Shown: positions 39,959 to 46,360 of the stretch, one piece after another
Layout: the number at the start of each line of letters is the position of its first letter
How positions within the stretch are numbered: the first letter of the stretch is position 1
NCBI GenBank assembly: GCA_024698705.1
Contig: JAILQX010000025.1
Coordinates: 20,925-84,924, forward strand
Length of the DNA stretch: 64,000 nucleotides
Origin: Lachnospiraceae bacterium
GTDB lineage: Bacteria; Bacillota; Clostridia; Lachnospirales; Lachnospiraceae
Direction: 5' to 3'
Position numbers and translations under genes: made by a program
The notes under the pieces: generated by a model
Told to the model about the DNA's origin: nothing
Database searches by the model: none
What the model saw: only the letters and a program-made list of their open reading frames with translations

Positions 39959-40161
39959 AAAAAAACCATTCAGAGTCAGATCGGCGTAAGGACCTGCCTC
40001 TTGCCCTCGACTCTGAACGGAATAACAGAAAAAGAAATCATTAAATCCATGTAAATACATGGAGGTACCGGACCGTACACGACCGAACTGCCTGCGAAGT
40101 ATAAAAAGGCCGTGCCTGATCCGCCGCAGGCGCAAAGCGTTCTCTTTCTGCTGTTAACTGA
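39959..40161 (-). ncRNA. Candidate structured RNA upstream of the reverse transcriptase
   Basis: The gap between the upstream gene and the RT folds as a series of stems on the minus strand. A ~15-bp long-range stem pairs 40141-40156 with 40023-40037. GCCTGCG/CGCAGGC pairs 40125-40131 with 40090-40096 around an inner AGGC/GCCT hairpin. CCATGTA/TACATGG lies at 40047-40062. A 12-bp stem (40009-40020 with 39966-39977, 31-nt loop) is followed by seven T residues, so the last hairpin is terminator-like. This layout resembles retron or DRT non-coding RNAs, but I cannot show reverse transcription. It could instead be only a terminator or attenuator of the upstream gene. Confidence 0.5.
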
Positions 40162-42505: not shown

Positions 42506-44221
42506 CTATCTCAATGCATGCATGTCTTTTTTCATCGCATACATCCTTTCATCCGCGATCCTCAGTCCCTCTCTTATTCCAAGACCGTCATCGGGTTTTG
42601 ACTCATATATTCCGTAAGCCGTGCTGAGCAGAAGATCCTCATATCCGGTATCCGCTTCGGCGAGTCTGTTGTTAAGCTTATCAAGTACACTGATGAGCCA
42701 TGTCCTGTCGTCATCCTTATCCACCTGCAGAACAAATATGAACTCATCTCCGCCTGTCCTCGCAAGGAAGCCCCTGCCCTCAAATGATGCCTTTAGTACA
42801 TCCGCAAAATGCAAAATATATTTATCACCGGCTTCGTGTCCGTAGCTGTCATTGGCCTTTTTCAGATGATTGAGATCGAACTGGACTATTATGTATCGCT
42901 TTTTGCCTTCGTCGATCATATCGAAATAATTCTCCGAAGCCTGCCTGTTGTTCAGTCCGGTAAGCGTATCCGTAAATGCCAGTTTTTCTATGATCTCCGC
43001 TCTTTCCTCAACCCTTGCCGACCTCATCGCATTGACTATGTAATCATAGAACATGGACAAAACAAAGAATATCATCGCGAAATACAGCAGGTTTGACGAA
43101 AAACCGTAATTGCTCTCCGTAGCGTGATATCGGATCATGCTCAAAAGAGCTACGATCCCCATTGAAATCGTTGCATATACGGACAGGATATATCTGTTTT
43201 TGCCCTTGACGATATCATAGATCCTTATACTCAGGACCGATACGATAGCTATTCCCGAAAGAACATGCATGATCGTCAATGAAGAACGCATGCCGACCTT
43301 ACAAAATATATATAAGCCGGTCGTCACGGCAAAAAATGCAATATCTATAAGCCACAGTATGCCAAAATAAATATTTCTTCGTGTCCTAAGTCTCCCGTTC
43401 TCTTCCTCAAACTGGTAAGCCATGAAAAAACACGGGAGCAGATAGAATGCGAAATATTTTATGAAAGCCTTTAAGACCAGGTCGTCAGAAAACAGTTCCG
43501 TGATATCGAGCTCACATATCATCCATACACCGAATGCTATCGAAAACAATGCAAGCCCGGCAAACCTGAACATATCCACCGGTCTGAACAGTTTTCTGAG
43601 ACTGCAGACGATCACCATTACGGTCATAGAACATCCGAGGATTATAAAGAAGAATCCCAGCGACATCGGAAATACCTTGCTTGAAGGATAATCCTTAAAA
43701 AATGCCCTGCCTTCCCATATTTCCGGCGGTGCGAGTTTGCTGAAAGCATCGTCCTCACCTATACGCATTGTGATACTCAACATGGCACCGGCCACCTTAT
43801 CATCCAGCTTCACGGTTCTGAAACCCACACCGAGCACATCTCCTCTTTCATATGCATCCGTTTCTGCTCTCAGCAGTTCCTTTCCATCCAGCTCAACCAC
43901 GATATCATAATAATGCTCATAGACTACCATGATCGTATTGTCCGGAAGCTTATCGGGAAGTTTTCTTGATATGACAAGGGTATCGCTCTTCTTTACATCG
44001 TCAAATACTTTCTCAAACAGATCGACATCCGTATATCTTTCATCGTTATATGTGACATCCCATCCTGCATTCAATATCTCCGGTCTTGATTCGGTCTTTG
44101 CATATCCCTCTAACAAACAGATCGCAGATACAAGTCCGCCCATTGCGCAGAATATCGCGATTATCACCAGGAACAAACTTGCAGGTGTCAGTTTTTTTTC
44201 TTTGCTCACATTAGTTTTCAT
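42506..44221 (-). CDS. Membrane GGDEF diguanylate cyclase with 7TM-DISM-like sensor
   Basis: 571 residues. A first membrane helix, an extracellular beta-rich domain (about 40-190, 7TMR-DISM-like), then about seven helices (190-400) and a GGDEF domain with DTLTGLNNR, FDLNHLKKANDSYGHEAGD and RTGGDEFIFVL. The active site is intact. No RxxD inhibitory site is visible at the usual position. The ribosome site is weak: GTG at 44227 or ATG at 44221 is the start. It is paired with the HD-GYP gene downstream. Confidence 0.92.
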   Translation of the reverse strand: MKTNVSKEKKLTPASLFLVIIAIFCAMGGLVSAICLLEGYAKTESRPEILNAGWDVTYNDERYTDVDLFEKVFDDVKKSDTLVISRKLPDKLPDNTIMVVYEHYYDIVVELDGKELLRAETDAYERGDVLGVGFRTVKLDDKVAGAMLSITMRIGEDDAFSKLAPPEIWEGRAFFKDYPSSKVFPMSLGFFFIILGCSMTVMVIVCSLRKLFRPVDMFRFAGLALFSIAFGVWMICELDITELFSDDLVLKAFIKYFAFYLLPCFFMAYQFEEENGRLRTRRNIYFGILWLIDIAFFAVTTGLYIFCKVGMRSSLTIMHVLSGIAIVSVLSIRIYDIVKGKNRYILSVYATISMGIVALLSMIRYHATESNYGFSSNLLYFAMIFFVLSMFYDYIVNAMRSARVEERAEIIEKLAFTDTLTGLNNRQASENYFDMIDEGKKRYIIVQFDLNHLKKANDSYGHEAGDKYILHFADVLKASFEGRGFLARTGGDEFIFVLQVDKDDDRTWLISVLDKLNNRLAEADTGYEDLLLSTAYGIYESKPDDGLGIREGLRIADERMYAMKKDMHALR

Positions 44222-44286
44222 AGTCACATCATATCACTATTTTCCGTTCTCCACCATGTATCTTATTAACAAAAAATATTTCCGAA

Positions 44287-44347
44287 ATACGAAGCGCAAA
44301 AGCACCCCGCATACGAAGCGCAAAAGCACCCCGCATACGAAGCGCAA
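44287..44347. repeat. 24-bp tandem repeat, 2.5 copies
   Basis: Two identical 24-bp units (ATACGAAGCGCAAAAGCACC...) plus a 13-bp partial third copy, ending where the large inverted repeat begins. The length is a multiple of three, so an antisense ORF shows a repeated AGCFCASY, but nothing indicates it is translated. Confidence 0.9.
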
Positions 44348-44565
44348 TACAGCAGGGATCGGGGCCGGAATAATAGGTCCGGATTCTGCTTATGCACGTC
44401 AAATGCCCACAACTTCTTTTTCTTACGGGTCGGCAGTAATCCGCCATCCATGGCGGTACTGCCTCAAAATGCCTTCCGGGCATTTTGACCCTTTCCTGTT
44501 AAGCATTTGACGGCAACGCAACGAATCCGTCGTATATTATTCCGGCCCCGATCCCTGCTGTGTTG
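44345..44565. repeat. Large nested inverted-repeat element with branched core
   Basis: A perfect 26-bp inverted repeat (44350-44375 with 44535-44560) encloses further matched arms: 44380-44386 with 44523-44529, the 10-bp CGTCAAATGC/GCATTTGACG (44397-44406 with 44503-44512) and GGGTC/GACCC (44427-44431 with 44487-44491). The last encloses two hairpins: GGCAGTA...TACTGCC with inner CCGCCAT/ATGGCGG (44432-44463), and AAAATGCC/GGCATTTT (44466-44486). Either strand gives the same branched fold. It lies between the ABC permease gene and the GGDEF gene. It could be a MITE-like element or a structured RNA; no T tract makes it a simple terminator. Confidence 0.85.
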
Positions 44566-44584
44566 TGTTTGGTTTCCCGTGCGC

Positions 44585-45376
44585 CTAGCTGGCCAGGTCT
44601 TTTCGGGTGTATTTTACGAAGGCTGTTACAACGGCCGCTATGATCAAGACAGCACTTATGATATATGCTGAAGCCGCGATCTCATTTCCAACAAATATCT
44701 CGGTTGCATTTGCCAGTGAATAAGGCCCGTATACGATGTAGTCCTTAAGATCCGGGCTGATCCTGCAGATCAGATCCGAAAAATAAAACAGCAATGCGAT
44801 ACCCAGTCCCGCACCGATCATGTTCTTTTTGACAAATGCCGAAAATGCAACACAGATGCAGGCTATCTCGATATTCATCAGCAGAACCGAGATCATATAC
44901 TTTAGGAAAAGATCTGTTTCAAAATTCTCACCGAGATAAGCAACTCCGCTGATATAGAATATGCCGGTGATGACACTGAACAATATCAGACCTGTGATAC
45001 ACGCTGCGATCTTCACTGCCACGACCTTAGTTATTGAGACCGGCAGCGAATACAGGAATTCGCCCGTATGTCCGTCCTCTTCCTTTGAGAGTAACGAAGT
45101 CGCCATGATGGCAGCAAACATTCCGCTACCTATGCCATGGACCGCACCGACCTCAGTTGCGAAATATCCTTTGAGTGTACCTATACCAAGTGTGCTCATG
45201 CCAAACGCATCCGAGAATGCACCCATATTGGAAAAGCTGTCCGAAAGCGCCTGCATATCCTCTGTCATACTTTGATAAAGAAGTACGCACATAAGTCCGA
45301 GCGTTCCGACTGAAATACTCCATATCAGAAGGCTTTTCAGATTCTGTTTGAATTCATGCTTGAATAATGTGATCAT
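44585..45376 (-). CDS. ABC-2 type transporter permease
   Basis: 263 residues, six predicted membrane helices. The N-terminal MITLFKHEFKQNLKSLLIWS is the usual ABC-2 permease start, and the first extracellular region (MQALSDSFSNMGAFSDAFGM) is typical. AGGAGG lies 6 nt before the ATG at 45376, so the earlier GTG of the track is not used. It pairs with the ATPase upstream, from which it is separated by the hairpin repeat. Substrate unknown. Confidence 0.85.
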   Translation of the reverse strand: MITLFKHEFKQNLKSLLIWSISVGTLGLMCVLLYQSMTEDMQALSDSFSNMGAFSDAFGMSTLGIGTLKGYFATEVGAVHGIGSGMFAAIMATSLLSKEEDGHTGEFLYSLPVSITKVVAVKIAACITGLILFSVITGIFYISGVAYLGENFETDLFLKYMISVLLMNIEIACICVAFSAFVKKNMIGAGLGIALLFYFSDLICRISPDLKDYIVYGPYSLANATEIFVGNEIAASAYIISAVLIIAAVVTAFVKYTRKDLAS

Positions 45377-45390
45377 ATCCATCCTCCTCA

Positions 45391-45538
45391 CTACATATTG
45401 GGAACCACCCGCGCATGCAGATTTGCCTTCGGCAAAGCGCGGGGGCTACATAGTGCAATGTTTTCTCTGAAAACCTTGCACTACATTTCGGGAACCACCC
45501 GCGCATGCAGATTTGCCTTCGGCAAAGCGCGGGGGCTA
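45391..45538. repeat. 58-bp direct repeat (two copies) with hairpins
   Basis: Copies at 45391-45448 and 45481-45538 differ at only two or three positions. Each folds as CCCGCGC...GCGCGGG around TTTGCC/GGCAAA. The 32-bp spacer forms a third hairpin, TAGTGCAA/TTGCACTA with GTTTTC/GAAAAC inside. The second copy includes the stop codon of the ATPase gene, and the first lies just before the ribosome site of the permease gene. Confidence 0.9.
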
Positions 45539-46360
45539 TGCTTCATAATAACCCATAAAGATCTCTTCTATCGAAGGATCAGTTATGTCCAGCTGCGTTA
45601 TGTTTTTTCCCGAAAGGTCGGCTATAAGTGAGTTCATGTCACCCTTATAGAGATAATCCGATTTTTTACCGTCTGCCGTCACGATTACCCTCTTCGAGTT
45701 TGTATGAGTAAGCTCATCCACGCTTCCGCAGCTTATGAGTTTTCCCTCCTTCATGATCGCAACATTTTTGCAGTAGTTTTTCACTTCCGAAAGAACATGT
45801 GTTGACAGCAGACAGGTCGTACCCTGCTTTACATACTCTTCTATGAGTTCAAAAAATGTATTCTGCATCAGCGGGTCGAGACCGCTTGTCGGTTCATCAA
45901 ATACGAACAATGCCGGCTTGTGCTGCATTGCGCATACTATACTCACTTTTTTCCTGTTTCCGAGTGAAAGCTCATTTATACTTCTGCTCGTATCTACCTT
46001 CAGTCTCTCGCAAAGTTTTCCCGCTTCGTCAGCACAATCTGTACCTCTTACGTCTGCTGCAAGCTTTATCACTTCGCTCACTTTCATTGACGGATAGAAC
46101 ATGGCCTCGGAAGGCATGTATCCTATGTTCTTCATCAGTTTCTCATGGCCTGACCTCGCATCGGATCCCAATATCTTTATCTCTCCTTCATACCCCAGAA
46201 ACCCAAGCATCGATCTGATCGTCGTTGATTTGCCGGCCCCGTTCGGTCCTAAGAATCCGAATATATCTCCCTCTTTTACCGTAAATGATACGCCCTCGAC
46301 TCCCCTGTGCTTCCCGTATCGTTTTGTAAGGTTGTTTATCTCTATAACATTTCCTGCCAT
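45536..46360 (-). CDS. ABC transporter ATP-binding protein
   Basis: 274 residues. Walker A GPNGAGKST, signature LSLGNRKKV, Walker B LFVFDEPTSG and the switch STH are intact. The signature has SLGN rather than SGGQ, common in ABC-2 drug/peptide exporters. GGAGG lies 8 nt before the ATG at 46360; the track ORF runs 37 codons further through a terminator and is wrong. It forms an exporter with the next permease. Confidence 0.93.
   Translation of the reverse strand: MAGNVIEINNLTKRYGKHRGVEGVSFTVKEGDIFGFLGPNGAGKSTTIRSMLGFLGYEGEIKILGSDARSGHEKLMKNIGYMPSEAMFYPSMKVSEVIKLAADVRGTDCADEAGKLCERLKVDTSRSINELSLGNRKKVSIVCAMQHKPALFVFDEPTSGLDPLMQNTFFELIEEYVKQGTTCLLSTHVLSEVKNYCKNVAIMKEGKLISCGSVDELTHTNSKRVIVTADGKKSDYLYKGDMNSLIADLSGKNITQLDITDPSIEEIFMGYYEA

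Follow-up and report, generated by a model that had tools for sequence, protein, structure and literature searches.

The locus and its inverted repeat

The window, a 64,000-nt stretch of a Lachnospiraceae bacterium contig (JAILQX010000025.1), contains a long nested inverted repeat between two minus-strand genes (Table 1). From reading their ORFs, we take one product to be ABC-permease-like and the C-terminal part of the other to be a GGDEF-like domain. A short tandem repeat borders the element, and its last partial unit prolongs the outer stem outward by G-U pairs on the plus strand; copies in a relative (G016) likewise have repeated units beside the element. Two 60-nt direct repeats that are 97% identical and 90 nt apart (45389-45448 and 45479-45538), each with a small hairpin TTTGCCTTCGGCAAA, lie between what are presumably the ABC permease and ATPase genes and represent a different intergenic repeat from the one studied here. 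The window also holds an RT-5 RNA (RF03026) on the minus strand at 40033-40135 (86.4 bits, cut-off 45.7).

Table 1. Features in and around the inverted repeat; arms and hairpins are named as read on the minus strand.
Feature	Position	Strand	Details
Gene with a presumed GGDEF-like domain at the end of its product	42506-44227	-	Inverted repeat lies upstream of the gene
24-bp tandem repeat	44287-44347		2.5 copies, 100% matches; abuts outer stem
Outer stem, 3' arm	44349-44375	-	27 nt, perfectly complementary to 44535-44561; sequence and folds; outside Rfam model
TwoAYGGAY RNA core (RF01731)	44373-44536	-	Model 1-168 of 168; 58.8 bits, E 3.6e-07 over the window
Second stem	44380-44386 with 44523-44529	-	CGGATTC/GAATCCG; fold
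Third stem	44397-44406 with 44503-44512	-	CGTCAAATGC/GCATTTGACG; fold
Second core hairpin	44432-44463	-	Tip CCA-UGGA-UGG, an AUGGAU loop of CsrA-site type; fold and alignment
First core hairpin	44464-44488	-	Loop CGGAA (GCC-CGGAA-GGC); fold and loop listing
Outer stem, 5' arm	44535-44561	-	Sequence and folds
Presumed ABC-permease-like gene	44585-45391	-	Stop codon 23 nt before outer stem

An initial annotation described a nested inverted repeat with a two-hairpin core, and both the sequence and its predicted folds confirm this. The outer stem is perfect, as claimed, but measures 27 bp rather than 26. More stems follow in register inside it: two further matched stems, the inner of which encloses two adjacent hairpins. 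The 261-nt stretch folds at -145.1 kcal/mol on the plus strand (z -14.5) and at -141.0 kcal/mol on the minus strand (z -11.3), and none of 200 dinucleotide shuffles was equally stable on either strand, in agreement with the view that such pairing is far from random. The annotation was also right that this is not a normal terminator. That candidate was rejected because the outer stem lacks a T-run behind it, and a scan of the element for canonical terminators gave only a five-pair match, as frequent in shuffled sequence.

Identity and distribution of the element

The sole Rfam match within 44200-45600 is TwoAYGGAY (RF01731), on the minus strand and at full length, scoring 58.8 bits (gathering score 43). 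The family's two hairpins with AYGGAY-type loops are both present: the second loop reads AUGGAU exactly, and the first, CGGAA, preserves the GGA without its flanking letters. From its sequence, the feature is as certain to be a TwoAYGGAY copy as it can be here. The suggestion of a structured RNA of unknown role thus gains a name, as the inside of the repeat is a known RNA family without known function. Weinberg et al. listed TwoAYGGAY in 2010 as probably an RNA, probably not cis-regulatory, and of unknown function (PMC2864571), whereas Rfam files it as cis-regulatory. On the basis of motif matches alone, a subsequent paper suggested that CsrA binds its loops and left validation open (PMC4333381).

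When the whole element was used to search its own genome and 40 relatives for DNA similarity, the window copy matched only itself, so that sequence search alone would call the element unique. The covariance model revealed a second copy in the same genome (G000:C17:155906-156070) and, in a sample of 61 genomes of relatives that included this one, copies above the cut-off in seven, with up to 20 in one genome. Across 298 Lachnospiraceae genomes drawn from 280 genera, 46 had RF01731 matches; copy numbers in this survey are lower bounds because few candidates were scored per genome. The annotation named the lack of a second copy and of conservation in any relative, along with no transcript, as what would refute it; a second copy and conservation in relatives were both found. 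Copies are often arranged as divergent pairs about 80-330 bp apart, and the phage and plasmid collections searched gave no meaningful match. The inner stem has CTTAG on each of its two arms in 27 of 93 copies, so that a conserved U-U mismatch interrupts a helix that is paired elsewhere. This feature is present in the second copy of the window's genome and has been lost from the window copy.

Inverted arms and mobility of the family

Among 93 copies gathered with flanks, all 91 with full flanks carry pairing arms outside the Rfam model, with a median of 47 pairs in 70-nt flanks compared with 16 when the flanks are shuffled. The feature first noticed in the window therefore belongs to the TwoAYGGAY family as a whole, and the outer arms are a family trait, newly described here, that is missing from the published model.

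In two relatives (G194 and G096), copies end in GATTCGGGTGTCAAAAGGT-like repeats of 19 bp, and an exact scan of species genomes located at least 111 stretches that contain this terminal repeat, mostly labelled Lachnospiraceae. Forty-one elements with both terminal ends served as the sample for target-site duplications. Exact 7-bp direct repeats flank 16 of them, compared with 0.25 expected from mispaired flanks, and allowing at most one mismatch raises this to 25 (expected 1.0); none has 8-bp flanking repeats. In 20 of the 41 the inside measures 257-277 bp, which matches copies with the two-hairpin core, and most of the others have insides of 18-165 bp, too small for the core. The G194 genome contains 34 two-ended elements, 18 full-size and 16 too short for the core; size classes of 68 and 121 bp recur among the shorter ones. 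Together, the terminal repeats, 7-bp duplications and core-less derivatives mark the elements of these genomes as MITE-like and mobile with TwoAYGGAY as their core, and mobility of the family is strongly supported in at least part of its range within Lachnospiraceae. That the arms end in GATTCGGGTGTCAAAAGGT flanked by 7-bp target-site duplications in several Lachnospiraceae is a new observation. Genes neighbouring the element differ at nearly every copy, and its orientation relative to them is random, with upstream genes facing either way about equally over all copies.

The loci retrieved and the paired ends in G194 yielded no parent transposase and no autonomous partner sharing the terminal repeat, and the viral contigs scanned did not contain the repeat. 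A serine-recombinase-like ORF (GYVRVST...; L271:1336-2240) that starts beside a terminal repeat and a truncated core start was considered as a partner and set aside, as it looks like a chance neighbour; it may be a gene that inserted into an element. In three loci from Clostridia MAGs (L176, L180 and L211), the same terminal repeat, with ATGTCAT duplications, encloses an unrelated inside of 92-95 bp, so the same ends carry other cores.

The window copy has terminal inverted repeats in the form of its 27-bp perfect arms. These are shorter than the arms of relatives and are not the GATTCGGGTGTCAAAAGGT repeat, which is absent from the window's genome; no target-site duplication is visible at the copy, and the genome holds only one other TwoAYGGAY copy. 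Given these differences, we infer the past mobility of the window copy from its family. The initial suggestion of a MITE-like or REP-like mobile element, and the check for duplications proposed with it, are accordingly borne out by the ends and duplications of relatives and not by the window copy itself. Within its own genus, copies at different loci have ends such as ATAATATTTCTTATCTG in common, and the divergent pairs show no clear target duplications. G004 and G011, both species of this genus, retain a copy pair at one shared site, suggesting that some copies are old and inherited. At both loci of the window's genome, no clean empty site was found among relatives because the genes on one side differ there.

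Core loops and predicted CsrA sites

Conservation within the core centers on its loops. In an alignment of 53 copies, both loops have an invariant second G in the GGA and the second loop also an invariant A, while the stems vary freely. Most loops read CA[NGGA]UG, that is mostly A-N-GGA-U, matching the CsrA site, for which SELEX gave the consensus RUACARGGAUGU (PMC7652899). Both window loops, AUGGAU and CGGAA, present GGA in a hairpin loop as CsrA-type motifs do. A sizeable minority of copies, including most of those in G043, have CGA in place of GGA and should not bind CsrA. The stems of the family are also very stable, a property that may disfavour CsrA binding, as the SELEX work suggests (PMC7652899).

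Counted by hand from the lists of positive and CsrA genomes, CsrA is present in 44 of the 46 TwoAYGGAY-positive genomes compared with 105 of the other 252 (Fisher p ~1e-12). The motility control FlhA is present in 45 of the 46 and predicts TwoAYGGAY equally well, so the association may be with CsrA or with motility in general. The window's genome encodes CsrA at G000:C25:92722-92877, beside an ORF that we take to be FliW-like, and this CsrA retains the residues at the positions of Leu4 and Arg44 in E. coli CsrA. Judged by motif and distribution, CsrA binding by TwoAYGGAY loops is plausible.

Competing explanations

The two-sided pairing can be read at the level of RNA or of DNA. Changes on both sides occur in 29 of 30 consensus pairs, supplying the compensatory changes that the initial annotation had proposed to look for. 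In the arms, 210 G-U oppositions compare with 187 A-C overall, and this surplus comes from five near-identical G194 copies (31 vs 3); without them the counts are equal (179 vs 184), so the strand test supports neither strand. A G-U excess would be the expected mark of selection on an RNA helix, and without it there is no indication that pairing is selected on the minus-strand RNA. These counts favour the main rival, which we still consider doubtful: a purely DNA-level MITE or palindromic repeat whose arms and hairpins are recognized as DNA, by a transposase or as a cruciform, or are made perfect when one arm is copied from the other, the RNA having no function. We read the counts, together with the scarcity of one-sided changes, as the probable result of such copying during replication, by which palindromes would stay perfect, in an element with loops under selection for another reason. 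The DNA-level rival would suit the near absence of one-sided intermediates, which in the first hairpin stem number 3 against 195 two-sided changes, as well as the target-site duplications, the core-less derivatives and the random orientation. It fits poorly with the persistence of the core across dozens of genera although core-less derivatives multiply too, with a loop motif that is the site of a known RNA-binding protein, and with the near confinement of TwoAYGGAY to genomes with CsrA and flagella.

The position of the copy suggests another role, in which the hairpin, standing in for a lost terminator in the manner of REP sequences, stops or stabilizes upstream operon transcripts and the loops are incidental. 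The G016 genome does have an intrinsic terminator directly after the gene orthologous to the ABC-permease-like one, and both copies in the window's genome lie behind a stop codon, in sense orientation. The missing T-run, the even split of upstream gene directions across all copies, and the conserved loops and tie to CsrA-bearing genomes, which this role leaves unexplained, make it improbable. An ordinary, non-mobile chromosomal cis-regulatory RNA or sRNA gene is very unlikely: the changing neighbours, and the duplications and size derivatives of relatives, speak against it, and the discoverers themselves thought a cis-regulatory role improbable (PMC2864571). It would agree with the Rfam class, the two diverged copies in the window's genome and the vertical inheritance implied by the same-site copies of two species in the genus.

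The reading we prefer, at about an even chance, is that of a long-resident MITE-like element within the 3' region of an ABC-transporter operon, where a read-through transcript would fold and offer two predicted CsrA sites. The element, a non-autonomous one with a two-hairpin core of ~165 nt between long inverted arms, would have been moved in trans by a transposase making 7-bp target duplications and, as a mobile repeat, have come to lie directly behind the stop codon of the ABC-transporter gene. Read-through from that gene probably transcribes it on the minus strand, and the transcript would fold into one long hairpin displaying two GGA loops, most likely binding the two faces of a CsrA dimer. 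Each transcript could then be a local or sponge-like CsrA ligand, and the long stem may cap the 3' end of the upstream mRNA. For the window copy itself, we infer transcription, CsrA binding and a host effect. In favour of this preferred reading are the RF01731 match, the further copies, the arms, the duplications in relatives, the loop motif, the co-occurrence with CsrA and the CsrA that the genome itself encodes next to a presumed FliW-like ORF; against it are the parity with FlhA, the CGA loops, the stable stems, the lack of a G-U excess, the random orientation, and a window copy without target duplication in a genome without the terminal repeat.

Significance and comparison with known systems

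In the years since 2010 no function has been assigned to TwoAYGGAY, and a place as the conserved core in a mobile inverted-repeat element would explain its patchy, multi-copy distribution. The literature on the family contained no mention that we could find of a mobile carrier or of target duplications. Its near confinement to flagellated genomes with CsrA turns a guess from motifs into a concrete hypothesis. Tentatively, miniature elements with a TwoAYGGAY core may carry predicted paired CsrA sites into host transcripts in Lachnospiraceae, so that a mobile element would change the wiring of the CsrA-FliW motility regulator or be dependent on it. The known CsrA antagonist in Firmicutes is a protein, FliW; if this proposal is true, CsrA in this phylum would have a candidate RNA partner in TwoAYGGAY. 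Should binding be confirmed, CsrA of Gram-positive gut bacteria would receive an RNA input, and a miniature transposon would be spreading regulator-binding sites.

Compared with the published TwoAYGGAY model, the window copy is a full-length match in which two GGA-loop hairpins are likewise enclosed by a long stem, and the model ends where the 27-bp perfect outer stem starts. Like bacterial MITEs, the TwoAYGGAY elements of relatives are small and gene-free, with terminal inverted repeats, target duplications of fixed length, deletion derivatives and many copies per genome; this likeness rests on the relatives, and for a MITE the element is unusually long and fully self-complementary, with a conserved two-hairpin core. 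REP and REPIN palindromes are similarly intergenic and sometimes occur as inverted pairs, whereas TwoAYGGAY forms units of ~165 nt plus arms and has direct target duplications. Finally, CsrA-sequestering RNAs of the CsrB/RsmY type share the GGA in hairpin loops, the flanking ACA and UGU, and more than one site per RNA. Unlike them, TwoAYGGAY has two sites per element, predicted as CsrA sites, on long stable stems and in several dispersed copies.
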